Below, one piece after another: positions 3,728 to 26,844 of a stretch of DNA of 42,342 bases (position 1 is the stretch's first letter; each line of letters starts with the position of its first letter). The position numbers and the translations under genes are program-made. The stretch lies in NCBI GenBank assembly GCA_011390345.1, contig JAABSP010000045.1:1-42342 (forward strand), written 5' to 3'. The notes under the pieces are model-generated. The model saw nothing but the letters and a program-made list of their open reading frames with translations. It was not told the DNA's origin and ran no database searches. Origin of the DNA: Desulfobacteraceae bacterium (GTDB taxonomy: Bacteria; Desulfobacterota; Desulfobacteria; Desulfobacterales; JAABSP01).

Positions 3728-3849
3728 GTTAAAAAAGCGGGGTGGAATCAGGGCCGGATAAAGTACTGCATCAGAAGAGCCCAAAATAATAGGGAACAAC
3801 CGGAAAAAAACTGCGGAACCAATTTAAGATTCAGGCAAGGGTCGAAGCT

Positions 3850-5232
3850 TCAGACAAGGGAGCGGAGGGATTTCGTCTTTCCGTAGGTCCTCCACCGGGA
3901 GCGTGCGGCAGCGGTCAACGGCCCCACCCGGACATCCACATAGTCGTAGACTTTGGGATGGCTTTTGCCTGGCGAGGGCCGCAGGATTCTGCCGAGGTAC
4001 TGGATCACCCGGCCCCCGAACCGGATGGGCGTCGCGATGAAGAGCATCGAAAGGTTTTTGCAGTCGAATCCTTCCCCGATCAATTGGCCCGTTGCAATGA
4101 CGATTCGAACCTCACCGCTGTTCAGGGCCTCGATCACTTCCCGCCGGCGGACCTGGGGGATCTCCCCGGTCAGCAGTTTGGCTCCGAGTTTATATTTGAA
4201 ATTGATCAGGGCCTGTAGAATCTCACAATGTTTTTTCCGATCCGAAAGGATTAAAATCGCGCCCTCATTTTCCGCTGCGGCCGCGGCCACATCTGAAGCA
4301 ATCAGCCGATTCCTTCCATCATCGGCAATCAGCTCCGAAAGCATCTTGCTGTACTCCCGAACCGGATCATGATAAGGGACGAAATCGGTCTTCCGGAAGA
4401 TCACTTCGGCCTGGAGAATATGCCCCTCCTCCCGCAGCGCGTCGGCCTCGACTTCATGGGTGAAGGTTCCCATGTGCCAGTAGATAAGCCTGGAGAGCTT
4501 GTCCCTGCGCCAAGGGGTAGCTGAAAGGCCCAGCATATACTTTGAATCAAACGCGGAAACCGCCTCAGTAAATGTCCGGCTCGGGATCCGGTGGCACTCG
4601 TCCACGATTAGATAGCCGACGGAAGGGGCGACCTTTTCCGCTGTCTTGTAGAGCGTCTGGATCAGTGCAACGGTGATCCGCTCTCCAATGACAAACTTTC
4701 CCGAACCGACCAGCCCAACCTCCTCAGCCGGTATTCCCATGAAATGTTCGATCCGCTCGATCCACTGATCGGCAAGGGCCTTGGTATGCACCACCACCAG
4801 GGCCGGCTGTTTCCTCTCGGCGACCGTGTGGAGCGCCATGACGGTCTTGCCGCTTCCCGTTGGGGCGCAGAGGACCCCGAACTCCTTGGGCAGGATCGTA
4901 TCCACGGCCTCCTGCTGAAAGGGCTTCAATTCTCCGGTAAAGGAGAATTGGACCGGCGGAAGCGTGCGCCGCCTGTCGATCAGTCTATAGGAAACGGCCA
5001 TCTCCCGGCAGAGATCGATGAGCTTTCGGATATAGCCCCGGGGAAGGATGAGAGTTTTGTCCTTTCCTTCGAAACAGAAGCTCAATTCCTCCGGAACCCC
5101 TTTATTCCACCGGCCCAGCCGTTCGTTTTCCAGCCATTTGGGGTTTTTGAAGCGGAGAGCCTCGAAGAGGCGCTCTTTGAGTTCATCCGGAACATCTTTC
5201 AGAAAGAGCCGGTTTTTAAGGGTGAAGATCAC
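3850..5232 (-). CDS. Superfamily 2 DEAD/DEAH-type helicase (XPB/RAD25-like)
   Basis: A 460-residue protein with the full SF2 motif set: LKPFQQEAVD (about 102, Q-motif-like), Walker A APTGSGKT (123-130), Walker B DECH (211-214), SAT (237-239), and near the C-terminus IATGQLIGEGFD and the arginine-finger motif QYLGRILRP. The DECH box and the compact two-RecA layout resemble bacterial XPB/RAD25-like and phage UvsW-like helicases. A 100-residue N-terminal region probably binds nucleic acid. Family role: ATP-driven DNA or RNA strand separation or annealing in repair. It is the last gene of a minus-strand run with the DHH-CBS gene 24 bases upstream. No nuclease or methylase neighbour suggests a defence role. 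Confidence 0.85.
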   Translation of the reverse strand: MIFTLKNRLFLKDVPDELKERLFEALRFKNPKWLENERLGRWNKGVPEELSFCFEGKDKTLILPRGYIRKLIDLCREMAVSYRLIDRRRTLPPVQFSFTGELKPFQQEAVDTILPKEFGVLCAPTGSGKTVMALHTVAERKQPALVVVHTKALADQWIERIEHFMGIPAEEVGLVGSGKFVIGERITVALIQTLYKTAEKVAPSVGYLIVDECHRIPSRTFTEAVSAFDSKYMLGLSATPWRRDKLSRLIYWHMGTFTHEVEADALREEGHILQAEVIFRKTDFVPYHDPVREYSKMLSELIADDGRNRLIASDVAAAAAENEGAILILSDRKKHCEILQALINFKYKLGAKLLTGEIPQVRRREVIEALNSGEVRIVIATGQLIGEGFDCKNLSMLFIATPIRFGGRVIQYLGRILRPSPGKSHPKVYDYVDVRVGPLTAAARSRWRTYGKTKSLRSLV

Positions 5233-5256
5233 AAATCAAAGGATTCGGCAGGGGGA

Positions 5257-6555
5257 TCAGGCCGGCAGAAGGTCATAGAAGTAGGTCATCACGTCGGAGC
5301 GGGTCACGATCCCGATGATCTTTTCCTCTTCAACCACCGGAAGCCTTCCGATATCGTGCTTGACCATAATTCTGGCGGCCGCGAGCGGGCTCTTCCCCGG
5401 CTCGATGGTGAGCACATCCCGGCTCATAAATGCCTTGACCGGGGACCTTTCCCCCTTTTTCTTCCGGATCTTCTTGAAATCCCGGCGGGAGACGATTCCC
5501 ACAAGCCTTTCCCCTTCCACCACCGGAAGTCCGGTACAGCCCTTCTCCCTAAGCAGGTGAGCCACTTTATCCATCGGTGTGCCCGCATCGACCGTGAAGA
5601 CCGGAAAGGACATGAGATCGCTGATCTGCACCGATGCACCGCCGTTTCCGAAGAGCAGGTCTTCGATCATCCCCTCCACCGCATCGGGATTGACCGATTT
5701 GAGCATCGCGGAGCCCGCGCCCGGATGGCCCCCGCCGCCGAGACCCCGCATCACGGCCCCCATATCGAGCCCCACATTGTCGCTGCGGCCGATGACCATG
5801 CACCGCTCCTCCGGCGTGGTGAAGATGCCGAAGGCTGCATCGACGTTGAGGATCTGCCGGTACATGTTGACCACGAGGGAAAGGCCCCCCACATGGCCCT
5901 TCACCGGGAGTTTGTTGATGCTGATGCTGTAGCCGTTGATCCGCTTTCGGTCCGCATTCTCCAGCATCTTGAAGAGGACGTCCTTCTGCTTTTCTCCGTA
6001 GGCGGGCCGGAGCAGGGTTCCGACGATCTTGAGGTCCGCGCCGTTCTCCAGGAGCCAGGCCGCGGCATACGCGTCTTCGGGTGTGGTGGCCGGAAACATG
6101 AGGCTTCCGGTATCTTCGTATAAGCCCGCGAGAAAGAGGGTTGCCTGGATCGGCGTCAGTTGGACCGCGTTTTCCTTCAATGCACGCACCATCAGGGTGA
6201 TGGCCGCGCCCGTCGGCTCCTGACACCGCCAGTCTGCTTCGATGTCTCCGCCCTCCATATGATGGTCCCAGAGGATGATCTCCAGATCTTTCCGGGGCTG
6301 CAGGGAACGAATCCGGCCCAGCCGGTTCCAGGCGTTCGCGTCTGTGATGATGAGACGCTTCACCGATTCCGGGTCGATCTCGTCCCATGTCCGGGTCTCG
6401 AAGACATCCTTGTGGATGGCCAGAAAGGCCCGGACATTGGCGTTGATGGTCTTTGGAAGCACCGGAACCGCACCCGGATAGAGAAGGGTTGCGCAGATCG
6501 CGGTTGCCAGGGCGTCGAAGTCGGTGTTTTTGTGGGTGGTGACCAGTTGCATCAT
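5257..6555 (-). CDS. DHH-family phosphoesterase with two CBS domains (CCA-enzyme-like N-terminal half without the nucleotidyltransferase)
   Basis: Domains in order: DHH phosphoesterase (THKNTDFDALAT at the N-terminus, WDHHMEGGD near residue 95), DHHA1 with GGGGHPGAG (about 255), and two CBS repeats ending in GIVTRSDVMTYFYDLLPA. In Desulfobacterota and Geobacter-type genomes the same order usually heads a much longer protein that continues into a poly(A)-polymerase/CCA-adding domain. Here the frame stops after CBS2 at 432 residues. The DHH part is expected to be a metal-dependent phosphodiesterase (NrnA/RecJ type), with CBS domains sensing adenosine nucleotides. Start: twin ATGs at 6555 and 6552 lack a strong ribosome site; a longer frame to 6651 would read through a tandem repeat and into the upstream gene, so it is rejected. 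Confidence 0.85.
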   Translation of the reverse strand: MMQLVTTHKNTDFDALATAICATLLYPGAVPVLPKTINANVRAFLAIHKDVFETRTWDEIDPESVKRLIITDANAWNRLGRIRSLQPRKDLEIILWDHHMEGGDIEADWRCQEPTGAAITLMVRALKENAVQLTPIQATLFLAGLYEDTGSLMFPATTPEDAYAAAWLLENGADLKIVGTLLRPAYGEKQKDVLFKMLENADRKRINGYSISINKLPVKGHVGGLSLVVNMYRQILNVDAAFGIFTTPEERCMVIGRSDNVGLDMGAVMRGLGGGGHPGAGSAMLKSVNPDAVEGMIEDLLFGNGGASVQISDLMSFPVFTVDAGTPMDKVAHLLREKGCTGLPVVEGERLVGIVSRRDFKKIRKKKGERSPVKAFMSRDVLTIEPGKSPLAAARIMVKHDIGRLPVVEEEKIIGIVTRSDVMTYFYDLLPA

Positions 6556-6561
6556 TATTAA

Positions 6562-6597
6562 ATGGACGGGATGGACGGAATAGACAAGATGGACGAA
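6562..6597. repeat. Four tandem 9-bp repeats (ATGGACGGG type)
   Basis: Plus-strand units ATGGACGGG, ATGGACGGA, ATAGACAAG and ATGGACGAA follow one another without gaps, between the membrane-protein gene and the DHH-CBS gene. On the minus (coding) strand this is a string of GTCCAT words immediately before the DHH-CBS start. Similar ATGGAC arrays are, to my recollection, common between genes in Desulfobacterota genomes; their origin is unclear. A related GTCC-rich array lies at 9265-9360. Confidence 0.7.
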
Positions 6598-6607
6598 GCG
6601 ATAAGGG

Positions 6608-7441
6608 CTATCCCGTGGTCTCCTCTTTGACCTCGCCGTCGATGACATCATCTTCGTTCCATTCGATGGCGGGCCGGTTCTTCTCCTCCTGGGCGTGCTC
6701 CAGGGCCAGTTGCCGCTTGTGTTTGAACTCGAGTTGAATCCGGTATTTGTTCATATCGGTCTGGCTGTCGATCGCCTTTTTGGCCAGCAGAAACCGAAGA
6801 TAGACTATCCAGGCAAAGATTCCCACGGCTACGGCTGTGCCGCCGATGAAGGCCCATTTGTACCGGACCAGGGTATCCATGCCTACCTGGCCCAGATAGG
6901 TGACCACATTGGGAATGATCCAGTAGGCCAGCACCCCTAAAAGGATTAGAAACCCGATGGTGAAGATGTTGAAGCCGCTGACAGCGGAGACCACCTTCTC
7001 CAGACTGCTCGCGTCGTCTGCCGCGGTCGATGGTCCGTTTCTGGCGGTTTCCGTTTCATCGGTCTCACCGTAAAAGAGGGAGATATAGGCCCGCACCGTA
7101 AAGGCGAACATCAAAATGATGCCCAGGGGAATCCCGATCGCGGCCACGAACCATGCACGGAACGGAAAGGGCTCATCCTCCCGCTGGAGCCGCACCTCAT
7201 AGTTCTCAAAGGGGCCGAAGGTCTTTTCGAAATAGTATTTGTTGAAATCACTCAGGCTTCTGCCGCTGGTCTCATGAATGACGTTTCCATTGTCGTCGAT
7301 TACCTGAAGCCATGATTTCTTTCCTGATTTCATAACCGCGACCGCAAAGATCTCCAGCTCGATCAGGAAGAGCGCGACCGCGATGATGATGAAGACTGTC
7401 TTGTTTTCCCGCACGATCTCCGAAATGTTCTTTTTTGCCAT
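6608..7441 (-). CDS. Four-TM membrane protein, unknown function
   Basis: A 277-residue protein with four hydrophobic segments at about 15-37, 94-122, 158-182 and 194-220. An extracytoplasmic loop of about 55 residues lies between TM1 and TM2 (with WLQVIDDNGNVIHE and a charged FEKTFGPFENYEVRLQRE), and the C-terminal tail is cytoplasmic and highly charged. The loop has a PDC/sensor-like feel but no motif that I can name. It is first in a minus-strand run with the DHH-CBS and helicase genes. A 156-base gap to the divergent FMN enzyme gene upstream should contain the promoters of both. No functional assignment is justified. Confidence 0.75.
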   Translation of the reverse strand: MAKKNISEIVRENKTVFIIIAVALFLIELEIFAVAVMKSGKKSWLQVIDDNGNVIHETSGRSLSDFNKYYFEKTFGPFENYEVRLQREDEPFPFRAWFVAAIGIPLGIILMFAFTVRAYISLFYGETDETETARNGPSTAADDASSLEKVVSAVSGFNIFTIGFLILLGVLAYWIIPNVVTYLGQVGMDTLVRYKWAFIGGTAVAVGIFAWIVYLRFLLAKKAIDSQTDMNKYRIQLEFKHKRQLALEHAQEEKNRPAIEWNEDDVIDGEVKEETTG

Positions 7442-7597
7442 ATGAATTCCTTTTGATTTCGTAGGATTTTTCCGGTAATAAAAAAAGGAGGACCATCCTT
7501 TTCATATTTTATGTTATGTAACACAGAGAACGGATAAGATTCAAGGATAAAGCAAAGACCCTAACAGGAAGACAGGGAGAAAGAGGCAAGGAGGATT

Positions 7598-8650
7598 ATG
7601 CAAGAGATTCGAAAGACCGCAAGGGAACGGATGAAGGGATACTGCCGGGTCTGCCCGGTCTGCGATGGAAGAGCCTGCGCCGGAGAGGTTCCGGGCATGG
7701 GAGGAATAGGCACGGGGGCATCGTTTCGGGCCAATATCGATGCCTTGGCCGGGGTCCGGTTCAACATGCGCCTGATCCATGATGCGGTCGAGCCGGACAC
7801 CAGAACCACGGTGATGGGAAACCTGCTGGAGATTCCAGTGCTGGCCGCGCCCATCGGCGGGGTCTCCTTCAACATGGGCGGCAGGATCACAGAGGAGGAG
7901 TATATTTCGGCCGTGCTGGGGGGATGTGCGGAAAAAGGGACCCTCGGCTGCACCGGTGACGGGGTTCCGCCCTTTATTCACGAGGCCGGCTTTTCAACGA
8001 TCCGGACGTTATATGGCAAAGGCATCCCCTTTATCAAGCCCTGGGAGGAGCAGGAACTCTACCAGAAGCTGGAGATGGCTGCCAACAGCGGGACCGAAAT
8101 GGCCGGCATGGACATCGACGCGGCCGGCCTCGTCACCCTGCGTCTCATGGGGAGGCCCGTATCGCCGAAGCCGCTGCCGAAACTCCGGCAGATCATCGAA
8201 AACACTCCGCTGAAGTTCATCCTGAAAGGCATCATGACGCCGGATCAGGCCAAGCTCGCGGTCGATTCCGGCGCGGCCGCCATTGTGGTCTCCAACCACG
8301 GGGGCCGGGTGCTCGACCATACCCCGGGAGTCGCGGAAGTCCTCCCTGCGGTCTCCAAGGCCGTCAACGGTCAGATTGCAGTATTGGCCGACGGCGGGGT
8401 CCGAACCGGCGGGGATGTGCTGAAGATGATCGCGCTGGGCGCGGACGCGGCCATGATCGGACGCCCCTTTTCCGTGGCCGCGGTCGGAGGGCTGAAGGAG
8501 GGCGTCATCAGCTATCTGGAGACCCTCAAAACCGAGCTGATCCAGGCCATGGTTCTCACCGGCTGCAAGGATATTTCCTCGGCAGATCCGTCGATCCTCT
8601 ATGGTTTTGAAGGAAAGGGTTTCGAAGGAAAGGGAGATTTTGCATCATGA
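7598..8650 (+). CDS. FMN-dependent alpha-hydroxy-acid oxidoreductase (lactate/glycolate oxidase family)
   Basis: A 350-residue TIM-barrel protein. A good ribosome site (AAGGAGG) lies six bases before the ATG. FMN-family motifs: APIGG near the N-terminal third, the Lys in ILKGIMTPDQA, the active-site VVSNHGGRVLDHTPG, and the phosphate-binding LADGGVRTGGDVLKMIALGADAAMIGRPF. An N-terminal Cys cluster (CRVCPVCDGRAC) followed by GEVPGMGG marks the subgroup found in anaerobes, where the electron acceptor is often not oxygen. The expected reaction is oxidation of a 2-hydroxy acid to a 2-oxo acid; the substrate cannot be read from sequence. The C-terminus contains a short duplication, GFEGKGFEGKG. 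Its stop overlaps the start of the double-ACT gene by four bases (ATGA), so the two are translationally coupled. Confidence 0.88.
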   Translation: MQEIRKTARERMKGYCRVCPVCDGRACAGEVPGMGGIGTGASFRANIDALAGVRFNMRLIHDAVEPDTRTTVMGNLLEIPVLAAPIGGVSFNMGGRITEEEYISAVLGGCAEKGTLGCTGDGVPPFIHEAGFSTIRTLYGKGIPFIKPWEEQELYQKLEMAANSGTEMAGMDIDAAGLVTLRLMGRPVSPKPLPKLRQIIENTPLKFILKGIMTPDQAKLAVDSGAAAIVVSNHGGRVLDHTPGVAEVLPAVSKAVNGQIAVLADGGVRTGGDVLKMIALGADAAMIGRPFSVAAVGGLKEGVISYLETLKTELIQAMVLTGCKDISSADPSILYGFEGKGFEGKGDFAS

Positions 8651-22618: not shown

Positions 22619-23404
22619 ATGGCGGACCGGAAAACACGGGAACGGTTTCGGGAGCAACTGATCGAACGGCGCAAGGAGATCTTCCGCCGCAGAAGCGACA
22701 ATCTCGCGTCTTGGCAGAAGCTGAACGAGGCCGAAAACGAATTCGAAGAGCGGGCTCAGAAGGTCAACCTCTCCCAGGGGCTGGACCGGCTCGACTCCCG
22801 GGTGAAAGATGAGATCGAGGCCATTGACCGCGCGCTGGGAAAGATCGAGACCGGTGACTACGGCCTCTGTGAGGGGTGTGAGACCGACATCTCCGAAAAA
22901 CGGCTCGAAACCCTTCCCTTTACCCCTTTCTGCACAGAGTGCGCCAGCCGGCTGGAACGGGGGCTTCCCCTGCCGATCGCGGAGCGGGAGGATGTCGAGA
23001 CCCTGGACCTGCCCCAGGATTATATTGGCATGACCGACAGCGAACTCGAAGAAGCGGTCTATGACGCGATCGATCGGGACGGACGGGTGGAGACCGAGGA
23101 ACTCAACATCGAATGCGAAGAGGGCGTGGTCTATCTGGAGGGAAAGCTACCCTCGGACAACAAGCGGCAGATCCTGCTGGAGATCATCGAAGATGTCATG
23201 GGGCTCCCCGAGGTGGAAGACAGCATTCAGATCGACCCCCACCTCTGGCAGCGGCGGGAGACTGTCCGAAAAACCGATGAGGACAAGACCGATGAGGAGG
23301 AGATGATGGAGGGAGAGGATACCAATGACAACGTCTATGCCTCTGAGATCGATGGGGACCCGTTGAGCCCCCCGGATCAGATGATCCGGGGGCGGGAGGA
23401 GTGA
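22619..23404 (+). CDS. DksA/TraR-type zinc-finger protein fused to a BON domain
   Basis: A 261-residue protein with TAAAGGAGG before the ATG. Residues 1-80 form a long charged helical hairpin. The C4 zinc finger is CEGCETDISEKRLETLPFTPFCTEC (Cys 84, 87, 105, 108) preceded by IETGDYGLCEGC, the signature of DksA/TraR proteins. Residues about 137-205 (MTDSELEEAVYDAIDRDGR, then LNIECEEGVVYLEGKLPS, then VMGLPEVEDSIQ) fit a BON domain, normally found in periplasmic osmotic-shock proteins or attached to CBS proteins. The last 50 residues are acidic and disordered-looking. No signal peptide is present, so the BON is probably cytoplasmic. DksA relatives bind RNA polymerase; whether this one does is unknown. 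The combination is unusual. Confidence 0.85.
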   Translation: MADRKTRERFREQLIERRKEIFRRRSDNLASWQKLNEAENEFEERAQKVNLSQGLDRLDSRVKDEIEAIDRALGKIETGDYGLCEGCETDISEKRLETLPFTPFCTECASRLERGLPLPIAEREDVETLDLPQDYIGMTDSELEEAVYDAIDRDGRVETEELNIECEEGVVYLEGKLPSDNKRQILLEIIEDVMGLPEVEDSIQIDPHLWQRRETVRKTDEDKTDEEEMMEGEDTNDNVYASEIDGDPLSPPDQMIRGREE

Positions 23405-24144: not shown

Positions 24145-24852
24145 ATGAAAATAACAAGCCGAACAACGCCTTCTTTATCCATATTTCTGATCCCGATCCT
24201 CCTGCTGACCCTTTCCGGGGTATCGGCCTGGGGGGTTACCGTGGATCTCCAGCGGGGCAGATTGACGGTGGAGGCCGAAAAAACCCCGCTGGGAGAGCTG
24301 CTCGAGGCCATCAATGATAAATACCCGTTACAGGTAAAAGGGCTGGAGAGGCGAAGCGGAGAAACCATTACTTTCCTTGCCAAGAACGATCCCCCGGAGC
24401 GGCTTTTCAAGCGGCTGCTGAGACAACTCGGAGAGACAAACTATGCCTTTGAGTTTGCCGGTTCCCGCCTGCGCAGGGTTTCGGTCATGCCCGAATCCCG
24501 TGCCGGCAGTTCTGCCGGCACAGCAGCACCTTTCCGGGCCACTGCGCCCAATCCCCTGCCCCAGGAGGAAGAGATTGCAGTGGTGCGGGTGGATCGGGTC
24601 ATCGAAGGCAGCCAGGCCCAGGCATTGAACCTGCAAAAGGGGGATCTGGTGTTGGAATATGACGGCCTCACCATCAATTCCACGAGTCAACTGATGCAGG
24701 AGGTCAAGAAGAAGAGCAAAAAGGGGAGTGTGGACATGATGGTGGTGCGGGATGGGCAGCCCATGCATCTGGCCCTGAAGGGCGGCTTTATCGGCATCCA
24801 TATTGTTCCCCATCGGGTCCCCCGATCCGAATATGAGCGGTTTGTCTATTGA
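24145..24852 (+). CDS. Envelope protein with secretin-N0/STN-like and PDZ domains
   Basis: A 235-residue protein with a signal peptide (1-30, ending VSAWG). Residues 32-100 (VDLQRGRLTVEAEKTPLGELLEAINDKYPLQV, then a second half) resemble the small STN/secretin N0 fold seen in TonB receptors and type II/IV secretin systems. A Pro/Ala linker (about 105-140) leads to a PDZ domain (IAVVRVDRVIEGSQAQALNLQKGDLVLEYDGLTINSTSQLMQEVKK, then MVVRDGQPMHLALKGGFIGI), as in GspC-type proteins. No protease motif is present, so it is a binding module of the periplasm. The Ser/Thr kinase gene starts 42 bases downstream in the same direction. The domain assignments are by pattern only. Confidence 0.7.
   Translation: MKITSRTTPSLSIFLIPILLLTLSGVSAWGVTVDLQRGRLTVEAEKTPLGELLEAINDKYPLQVKGLERRSGETITFLAKNDPPERLFKRLLRQLGETNYAFEFAGSRLRRVSVMPESRAGSSAGTAAPFRATAPNPLPQEEEIAVVRVDRVIEGSQAQALNLQKGDLVLEYDGLTINSTSQLMQEVKKKSKKGSVDMMVVRDGQPMHLALKGGFIGIHIVPHRVPRSEYERFVY
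24500..24521. repeat. Near-perfect 22-bp inverted repeat inside the PDZ-protein gene
   Basis: GTGCCGGCAG and CTGCCGGCAC are exact reverse complements around a central TT. It encodes the linker (RAGSSAGTA) between the two domains, where sequence is free to vary. It could be a small REP-like insertion tolerated there, or chance. Confidence 0.45.
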
Positions 24853-24894: not shown

Positions 24895-26844
24895 ATGGCC
24901 AATCCTCCCAAAGACAACGACAAGGAAAAGGATTTTCAGGAGACGGTCGCCTTCTCCCGAGAGGAGTTGGAGATACCGGCTGAAAAGGAAGAAGCGGAAG
25001 AAAAGGATTATCAGGAGACGGTCGCCCTCTCCAGGGAAGGGCTGGGGATATCTTCCGGTTCCGAATCCCCCGGATCCGGAAAAGCGGCAGATGATACCTA
25101 TCAGGAGACCGTGGCCCTCTCCCGGGAAGAGATGTCGAAAAAGGCATCAGATGACGATTACCAGGAGACAATCGCTCTTTCCCGGGAGAAGATAAGGGGA
25201 AATGATCCGGATGAGGGCTATCAGGAGACCGTTGCCCTCACCAAGGAGTCGATGGGGGTCAGAGTCAGAGATCAACGATCCCAAAGAGACGAGAACGACT
25301 TCTCCGCGTCCGAAATGGAAAAGACCTTCTTCATCGAACGGGTGCTGAAGGATCGAGAAGAGGAGAAGTACCATTATCACGGGAAGATCGTCTCCGGCGG
25401 CATGGGAGCGATCCTGAAGGTGCTGGATCAGAACCTGCAGCGGACCATCGCGATGAAGGTGATCCTGCCCCACCTCAAAGACGACATCGACACCTTAAAC
25501 AGCTTCATCACCGAATCACGGATCACGGGTCTTCTGGAGCATCCCAACATCATCCCGGTCCATGAGCTGGATTTCAATCCGGAATCGGGGATCTTCTTCA
25601 CCATGAAGCTGGTTCATGGGGAGTCCCTGATCGATCTCCTCAAGAAGATCAAGTCCGGAAATATCGAATATCAGGAGCGATATTCCTCATATCATCTCCT
25701 GAACATCTTCCGCAAGGTCTGCGACGCCATCTCCTTTGCCCACTCCAGAAGCATCATCCACCAGGACATCAAGCCCCACAATATCATCGTAGGTCCCTAT
25801 GGCGAGGTTCTGCTCATGGACTGGGGTTTGGCCCGTTATATCGGAGATCCCGAGGCGGAAACGGACCCGGCCACCCGAACCCTTGTCACCGACGTGCTGG
25901 AGACCGAGACCGACCGTGGGGATCTCATCAAAGGCTCACCGGCCTATATGTCTCCTGAGCAGGTCACGGGCGAGCCTCTGGACCGGCAGAGCGATATCTT
26001 CCTGATGGGCGCTACATTGTATCATATCTTTACGCTGGAGCCGCCCTATGTCGCAAAGGAGATGCAGCAGATCCTTTCCATGGCCATGAACGGAAGGCTG
26101 ATCCCGCCGGAGGAGAGGCGTCCGGACCGGCAGATTCCCGAAGAGATCTGCCGGATTATCAAAAAGGCGATGTCCCCTGCCCGGGAGGATCGATACGCAT
26201 CCGTGGATGAGATGGCCGGGGATATCGATGATCTCATCGCGGGCCGGTGGACCCGGCAGGAGAAGCGCCATTTTTCCGCGGGCGAGTTTCTGATGAAAGA
26301 GGGAGAATCCGGGGAGGAGGCTTATCTGATCCTGAACGGCAGGGTGGAGGTGGTAAAAGCGGCCCACGAAAAGCAGATGGTACTTGGGGAATTGGGCCCA
26401 GGGGATACCGTGGGCGAGATGTCGCTCATCGCATCCGTCACCCGATCCGCAAGCGTCAAAGCCGCGGAGGAGACCGAAGCCGCAATCCTGACCAAGGATC
26501 TCGTCTCCCAGAACCTCAAAAAACTGCCGCCGTATATGGAGAAGATCGTATCGGCCCTGACCGATCGGCTGCGGATCGCCAATGCCAACATCCATCCTTA
26601 CGCAATCGCAGATCCGACAGATGTTGTGCTGAAGCAGCTTCGGCTTCTCTTTCGGGAGAAATCGGACAATCAGATGGAGGGTTTCTCGGCCCCGATCGAC
26701 GCGATCGTCTCAGAGATCGCTCAGGATCTGGGGCTTGCCCAGCAGCGGGTTCGGGAAGTGTTCGATCGGGCCGATGAAGCCGGAGTGATCAAGATCCGGG
26801 CGGATCTGGTTTCGATTCCGGACATCAGCCTTCTGGGGAAATAA
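24895..26844 (+). CDS. Ser/Thr protein kinase with N-terminal QETVAL repeats, cyclic-nucleotide-binding domain and possible C-terminal HTH
   Basis: A 649-residue cytoplasmic protein. Residues 14-118 carry five copies of [FY]QET[VI]A[FL][ST][RK]E, with Thr at 17, 42, 72, 92 and 112, set in acidic, disordered-looking sequence; a looser EKTFFIE follows at 142. The kinase domain (about 158-450) has SGGMGAILKV, Lys188 (IAMKV), Glu in FITESRI, HQDIKPHN (289-296; Gln replaces the usual Arg of HRD), DWG (309-311) and AYMSPEQ. Residues 458-560 are a CRP-type cyclic-nucleotide domain with LGPGDTVGEMSLIASVTRSASVKA as phosphate cassette. The last 80 residues include IAQDLGLAQQRVREVFDRADEAGVIKI, a helix-turn-helix-like pattern. 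No membrane segment is seen. The ribosome site is weak. Substrates are unknown. Confidence 0.9.
   Translation: MANPPKDNDKEKDFQETVAFSREELEIPAEKEEAEEKDYQETVALSREGLGISSGSESPGSGKAADDTYQETVALSREEMSKKASDDDYQETIALSREKIRGNDPDEGYQETVALTKESMGVRVRDQRSQRDENDFSASEMEKTFFIERVLKDREEEKYHYHGKIVSGGMGAILKVLDQNLQRTIAMKVILPHLKDDIDTLNSFITESRITGLLEHPNIIPVHELDFNPESGIFFTMKLVHGESLIDLLKKIKSGNIEYQERYSSYHLLNIFRKVCDAISFAHSRSIIHQDIKPHNIIVGPYGEVLLMDWGLARYIGDPEAETDPATRTLVTDVLETETDRGDLIKGSPAYMSPEQVTGEPLDRQSDIFLMGATLYHIFTLEPPYVAKEMQQILSMAMNGRLIPPEERRPDRQIPEEICRIIKKAMSPAREDRYASVDEMAGDIDDLIAGRWTRQEKRHFSAGEFLMKEGESGEEAYLILNGRVEVVKAAHEKQMVLGELGPGDTVGEMSLIASVTRSASVKAAEETEAAILTKDLVSQNLKKLPPYMEKIVSALTDRLRIANANIHPYAIADPTDVVLKQLRLLFREKSDNQMEGFSAPIDAIVSEIAQDLGLAQQRVREVFDRADEAGVIKIRADLVSIPDISLLGK
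24934..25248 (+). repeat. Region coding five QETVAL-type peptide repeats
   Basis: The five decapeptides are spaced 25, 30, 20 and 20 residues apart. The core codons are largely kept (TATCAGGAGAC recurs), while the spacers differ in length and sequence. That suggests selection on the motif rather than a fresh tandem duplication. Confidence 0.85.

Follow-up and report, generated by a model that had tools for sequence, protein, structure and literature searches.

What purpose does a threonine motif, repeated five times, serve at the head of a bacterial Ser/Thr kinase? The question is raised by a gene in a contig of a Desulfobacteraceae bacterium, a relative of sulfate reducers, of which a stretch of 42,342 nucleotides was analysed (hereafter, the window). 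The gene (24895..26844, + strand) starts with ATG and encodes a 649-aa protein, here called the array kinase, that consists of a disordered tail, a Hanks-type kinase domain and a CRP/FNR-like module. The sequence-only reading of this DNA had described five decapeptides of the form [FY]QET[VI]A[FL][ST][RK]E ahead of a Ser/Thr kinase, with threonines at 17, 42, 72, 92 and 112, and translation of the reading frame bore this out to the residue: QET[VI]A begins at residues 15, 40, 70, 90 and 110. All copies lie on the + strand in the acidic N-terminal tail (residues 1-139, 24895..25311): FQETVAFSRE with Thr17 (24934..24963, from residue 14), YQETVALSRE with Thr42 (25009..25038, from residue 39), the same decapeptide with Thr72 (25099..25128, from residue 69), YQETIALSRE with Thr92 (25159..25188, from residue 89) and YQETVALTKE with Thr112 (25219..25248, from residue 109). 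QETV, ETVA and YQET occur four times each in the real tail, and a 4-mer occurring at least four times was obtained in 3 of 20,000 shuffles of the 140-residue tail. A DNA pattern for the motif gave four matches, all in the array, versus three for a reversed control; it missed copy 3 because a GTG codon was excluded. An AlphaFold2 model built on a 25-sequence alignment (mean pLDDT 72.8, pTM 0.56) is mostly confident in the kinase and CRP-like parts and has pLDDT below 50 over residues 5-132, which agrees with the earlier view that the tail is probably disordered. A looser sixth copy had been seen in EKTFFIE (residues 142-148), and this was ruled out: in ten orthologues, the residues aligned with its Thr are T,S,F,K,E,T,E,E,K,D, and it lies within a pre-kinase helix (residues 140-149, 25312..25341, + strand), delimited by the model and the orthologue alignment, that holds no motif copy. 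The first Glu of EKTFFIE is invariant in the ten aligned orthologues.

The kinase domain (PF00069, E 1.4e-34) spans residues 159-435 (25369..26199, + strand). K188, E207, D291, K293, N296 and D309 are invariant in all ten aligned orthologues; HRD reads HQD in 8/10 and DFG reads DWG in 10/10. Judged by these residues, the protein is a Hanks-type Ser/Thr protein kinase with complete catalytic Lys, Glu, Asp, Asn and Asp. Among solved structures, its kinase domain is closest to PknB and PknA by both sequence and fold, and PknB and PknA structures were the top Foldseek matches. Unlike PknB-type kinases, it has no PASTA match and carries the tail array and the CRP-like module instead. Assignment to the PASTA kinases (PknB/Stk1) was rejected, as NF033483 reached 184.9 bits, below its cut-off of 450, with a match confined to the kinase part, and Pfam found no PASTA domain. 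Downstream of the kinase domain lies a module of which the sequence-only reading made no mention (residues 455-645, 26257..26829, + strand). It contains a cNMP-binding domain (PF00027, residues 458-539, E 2.1e-18) and, behind it, a C-terminal part alignable with the remainder of CRP/FNR proteins; among solved structures, these residues match CRP/FNR regulators, for example 3h3u over its residues 26-217 of 224 (E 4.2e-14), and the model is in line with this. No winged-helix Pfam model matched the protein. The protein is therefore a kinase followed by a CRP-like module, and residues 455-645 are assigned as a CRP/FNR-like cNMP module whose ligand binding is putative. CRP/FNR transcription regulators match it over both the cNMP domain and the C-terminal part, but here the module is fused to a kinase. 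Like the array kinase, cGMP-dependent protein kinases, which are among the sequence matches, combine a kinase and a cNMP-binding domain in one chain, but the order is reversed: in the array kinase, the kinase comes first and the sensor last, with a CRP-like C-terminal region. The two are likely independent fusions. A literature search for bacterial Hanks kinases with a cyclic-nucleotide-binding domain returned nothing relevant, and the words 'cyclic nucleotide' and 'cNMP' are both absent from the available text of a 2018 review of bacterial Hanks kinases (PMC6213207).

We searched 58 genomes, including that of the window, with the kinase as query, and ten matched at E<=1e-60. Nine of them carry kinase-CRP orthologues (10 loci, one genome having two); the tenth, G053, has a different kinase that matched over the kinase part only. 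Genome contigs were also scanned, and the best 80 of 347 stretches encoding a relative were used. Among these, the 18 orthologue loci L020-L037 are labelled as Desulfobacteraceae, Desulfobacterales or near kin, with Desulfonema magnum among them; L036 is truncated where its contig stops, and the L037 protein (500 aa) ends shortly past the cNMP part. A motif profile in which the Thr column was blanked found 56 copies in 12 of 19 tails (the window and L020-L037), at one to nine copies per tail. The other seven tails had no copy above threshold, two of them (L023, L034) being cut by a contig end. In the blanked column, Thr stands in 55 of the 56 copies and Glu in one; Ser was never found. The +3 residue is I in 31 copies, L in 17, M in 6, F in 1 and N in 1, so that the hydrophobic +3 seen in the window's copies recurs across relatives as I, L, M or F in 55/56. 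At -3 stand Y (36), F (10), H (9) and M (1), and further conserved positions are +4 (Ser/Thr/Pro), +5 (Arg/Lys) and +8 (Leu/Met). The profile had been built from peptides chosen by eye, every one with Thr, hence several checks for circularity were made. Trained on no more than the five copies of the window, the profile found 47 copies, with Thr in 47/47; with both Thr and +3 blanked it found 55, all with Thr; and across all variants, including one with two peptides dropped, Thr stands in 47-55 copies with at most one exception. Recurrence of the motif in orthologues, a check proposed with the sequence-only reading, thus came out in its favour: the array is kept in orthologous kinases, with a near-invariant Thr. 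The array is absent from the tail of one orthologue, that of G118. A motif regular expression run on tails of distant relatives matched once in L037, once in L045 and in no other of the 17 tails; by eye, a single copy each was assigned to L032, L035 and L037. As far as sequence goes, the array kinases form a Desulfobacterales family of kinase-CRP fusions whose Thr-motif array, of 2-9 copies, is conserved and expandable. A Planctomycetota relative (L044:5206-7980) has a different tail array, DETxxDESFGDES. In L031 (4255-7770), the kinase is the C-terminal part of a single 1,172-aa frame, the first half of which looks membrane-bound and coiled-coil by eye, and in which Pfam matches were confined to the kinase and cNMP parts. 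A second kinase, fused to WD40 repeats, lies immediately downstream of the array kinase in L033 (8657-12436), and L034 also has, after its kinase, a frame with a similar start.

Are the copies recent duplicates or old and constrained units? Between the five copies of the window, pN/pS is 0.185 in the core versus 1.89 in the next five residues, and the copies differ mostly at synonymous sites. As the copies were chosen by a pattern that fixes five residues and so lowers pN, the five pattern-free positions were tested alone; pS was 0.549 and pN 0.161, a ratio of 0.29. This low ratio at a pS of 0.55 indicates that the copies are old and constrained rather than fresh duplicates. Core pN/pS is 0.04-0.44 in 10 of 11 arrays, the window included; L026 has no differences and is not measurable. 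At the pattern-free positions +3 to +6, the ratio is 0.09-0.81 in nine other arrays (L026 again not measurable), and constraint there is weakest in L029 (0.81) and L033 (0.74). The stretch from +9 to +14 has ratios of 0.00-0.82 in ten other arrays and 1.11 in the window. Copies inside one array are not independent of each other. It could be argued that the repeats are functionless leftovers of tandem duplication, as near-identical tandem units are found in L022, L028 and a Thr-less array of L025, and as constraint at the pattern-free positions of L029 and L033 is weak. However, synonymous divergence is high while amino acids are kept in the window and in 9 of the 10 other arrays, and the same motif is found across orthologues of about 48-60% identity, so this explanation is highly improbable.

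The conserved part of each copy is long. About a dozen positions are conserved, beyond Thr and +3, and the +9 to +14 stretch is as constrained as the core, or more so, in L024, L025, L027 and L029. D. magnum (L025, frame 3832-8553) has a kinase tail of approximately 1,080 residues that holds five full copies; at least 21 related units in it, such as DEKIISEEDFANLA, have no Thr. These Thr-less units (DEKIISEEDF type) keep IIS-E-E-[FL], with a core pN/pS of about 0.42, patterned sites included; they fall below the threshold of the scan, and with them included, the count of Thr would be 55/77. The over-long conserved part and the Thr-less units favour, or at least leave room for, a short linear motif that works independently of phosphorylation. 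Each copy would then be a strand and a short helix that bind a folded partner or the kinase body, and the array would provide avidity; +4 Ser followed by R-E-E-L may resemble a helix start. On the other hand, a mere cap or strand position would hardly account for Thr in 55 of 56 copies, with Ser and Val never seen in its place. AlphaFold2 also gives the copies no confident structure, a weak point with 25 sequences and ambiguous repeats. We consider this explanation somewhat doubtful.

The motif is restricted to the array-kinase family at the sensitivity used. In the 58 genomes, a motif profile of 15 positions had 28 matches at E<=1e-3 (G000 5, G001 5, G003 3, G009 2, G014 4, G026 6, G040 3), of which 26 are in kinase frames. 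The other two lie in G040:C743, a frame of 163 aa at the edge of a contig that probably supplies the start which the G040 kinase lacks; the idea that the motif is one common to other proteins was therefore rejected at this sensitivity. Eleven weaker matches (E 0.06-0.97) were found in the same genomes, one of them in the contig-cut G034 kinase. The sequence-only reading knew of no described family with such an array. On five tails, no Pfam model matched at cut-off, the best being PF22020 on L029 with 25.2 of 27 bits; no NCBIfam model on three array kinases names the tail; and the letters of the motif had no match in the literature searched. The confinement of strong matches to this family, together with a catalytically complete kinase that adjoins the array, would also suit threonines that are autophosphorylation or pseudosubstrate sites tuning the kinase's own activity as a multi-site switch, with no FHA readers; the basic +5 and hydrophobic +1 and +3 could form a kinase consensus. 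Yet the number of copies varies from none (G118) through one to nine while the catalytic residues are unchanged, and the model shows no confident structure for the copies. We regard such a self-tuning switch as unlikely.

The motif is probably phosphorylated and used for holding partner proteins; the array, its conservation, its family restriction and the domain layout, from which this reading starts, are direct results of computation. FHA domains bind phospho-Thr, and the residue at pT+3 affects their selectivity, according to the available text of PMC5549992. A near-invariant Thr, never replaced by Ser, with a large hydrophobic residue at +3 fits a phospho-Thr ligand of FHA domains. We therefore favour, at a probability of roughly 0.45, phospho-Thr docking of FHA proteins by a kinase that would be PknG-like in its working and outside the PknG family. 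The tail threonines would be phosphorylated by the array kinase itself or by a sister kinase, and the phosphorylated copies would be read by FHA domains, so that the tail may recruit FHA proteins, one or more, to serve as substrates or adaptors. The CRP-like module may gate the kinase through a cyclic nucleotide or another ligand. Against FHA docking, conservation exceeds the need of a phospho-Thr ligand, as -3, +4, +5 and +8 are conserved too, and the Thr-less D. magnum units persist in at least 21 copies.

The closest parallel is PknG with GarA/OdhI in Actinobacteria. As far as the available text of PMC8546545 goes, PknG has a disordered N-terminal tail in which several autophosphorylated Thr residues anchor FHA substrates. 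The array kinase is likewise a Ser/Thr kinase with a disordered N-terminal tail, here a predicted one. The two differ in several respects: that text mentions no tandem motif for the PknG tail, whereas a tandem array is present here; PknG has TPR and usually rubredoxin domains, whereas the array kinase has a CRP/FNR-like module; and tail phosphorylation and FHA anchoring are described for PknG but proposed for the array kinase. Pfam and NCBIfam scans found no TPR or rubredoxin domain in the array kinase, and membership of the PknG family was rejected on this ground.

Which FHA proteins could be the readers? FHA domains were found in 9/9 kinase-bearing genomes and in 9/9 distinct further ones (those behind 11 entries), 18/18 in total, and also in 34 of 49 relatives without the kinase, so that the mere presence of FHA domains says little. 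The sequence-only reading had suggested looking for FHA proteins encoded near orthologues, and none turned up: with two FHA queries, tblastn found no FHA gene in the window or in the fetched flanks of the 18 orthologue loci (177,557 bases, L020-L037, several flanks being cut by contig ends). The same two queries recovered FHA genes in three control loci. The array kinase of the window is directly preceded by a gene for a PDZ-domain protein (24145-24852), and the product of another gene further upstream (22619-23404) has a DksA/TraR-type zinc finger and, C-terminal to it, a BON domain. Within the fetched flanks, counterparts of these two genes, of the upstream LysM gene and of the downstream EamA gene turned up only in two relatives of the same family. 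An all-against-all comparison of flank ORFs found genes common to a few loci, and the kinase alone is common to all 18.

The window genome is FHA-poor, with three FHA matches in two proteins, and both are candidate readers. One is a tandem-FHA protein with two FHA stretches, which adjoins PP2C-like and kinase-like frames (names by eye and pattern). The other (G000:C58) has 159 residues, with an FHA domain (PF00498, E 1.3e-13) and a zinc-ribbon-like start (a weak Pfam match below cut-off). Its G74 R75, S89, H92 and N110 G111 T112 are invariant in 10/10 sequences; by its residues, this candidate reader is an FHA domain with conserved G-R, S, H and N-G-T. Its operon includes a roadblock gene and, from sequence reading alone, an MglA-like gene. 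In L224 (4935-7845, G000:C58), L225, L229 and L231, the operon comprises roadblock, MglA-like, an acidic protein of 270-290 aa and the zinc-ribbon FHA protein (names partly by eye). It sits near an EF-G-like gene and is also present in G167 (L231), a genome that gave no match to the array kinase.

The zinc-ribbon FHA protein and the kinase co-occur. Of 389 genomes of the order, 18 have a match to the kinase query at E<=1e-60, which in G053 and G185 covers no more than the kinase part. The zinc-ribbon FHA protein (full-length, E<1e-50), searched with a profile from nine kinase-bearing genomes and one near relative, is present in 14 of the 16 kinase genomes versus 6 of 373 without the kinase (Fisher p 2.7e-19, uncorrected for kinship). 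Eleven kinase-less genomes have weaker, near-full-length matches, and p is 1.8e-15 if these are counted. The kinase and the zinc-ribbon FHA protein occur in nearly the same families, and shared ancestry may therefore account for their association. The kinase occurs without the zinc-ribbon FHA protein in G079 (89% complete) and in G190, which has a 500-aa kinase with a single motif-like copy. Of the six genomes with the converse, four are 53-87% complete, and two, G167 and G183, are 98% complete. G118 has both proteins, but its kinase tail lacks the array. G390 and G391 yielded no zinc-ribbon FHA protein; the kinase of each has a single motif-like copy (by eye), and the sole FHA match of each is of the tandem-FHA kind. 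With G079, G190, G167, G183, G118, G390 and G391 as counter-cases, the zinc-ribbon FHA protein was not accepted as the dedicated reader and is a candidate only.

The tandem-FHA proteins carry a site of their own. In 13 of 19 loci examined (18 genomes), the protein matched the FHA pattern and has T[MVIL]x[ILMVF] in its linker, typically ETMVMDTGKYRSM; the site reads ETMVMDTGKY, or DETMVIAP in G390 and G391. The G002 protein has the same linker on reading, which the stricter pattern missed, and five other loci were unmatched by the pattern. In these proteins (L013:1051-1767, - strand, and relatives), the linker site is reminiscent of the GarA/OdhI phosphorylation site. A core of E-T-hydrophobic-x-hydrophobic in both the kinase tails and the tandem-FHA linker is what a common kinase or a common FHA preference would lead one to expect. 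ETMVM is also found in G002 (73% complete), in which the array kinase was not found.

Phospho-Thr docking, our preferred reading, can be extended to a bolder model that we offer as speculative and improbable as a whole. A cyclic-nucleotide-gated kinase would write its own multivalent phospho-Thr barcode, and its copy number, one to nine between species, would set the number of FHA adaptors per kinase. The ETMVM linker of the tandem-FHA protein would act as a competing ligand, and through the zinc-ribbon FHA protein the kinase would be coupled to a GTPase system of MglA and roadblock.

PknG already provides a bacterial case of docking through a phosphorylated kinase tail; that tail is poorly conserved in sequence, as stated in the available text of PMC8546545. 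In the array kinases, what is presumed to dock is a clear, repeated and countable motif, kept across families of a bacterial order and borne by a kinase with a CRP-like sensor. Such a unit makes a possible kinase-FHA code testable with short phosphopeptides and a few FHA domains, and the copy numbers of the arrays form a natural series in which multivalent recruitment could be studied. Should the CRP-like part prove to bind a cyclic nucleotide, the array kinases would also be a bacterial counterpart of cyclic-nucleotide-dependent kinases.
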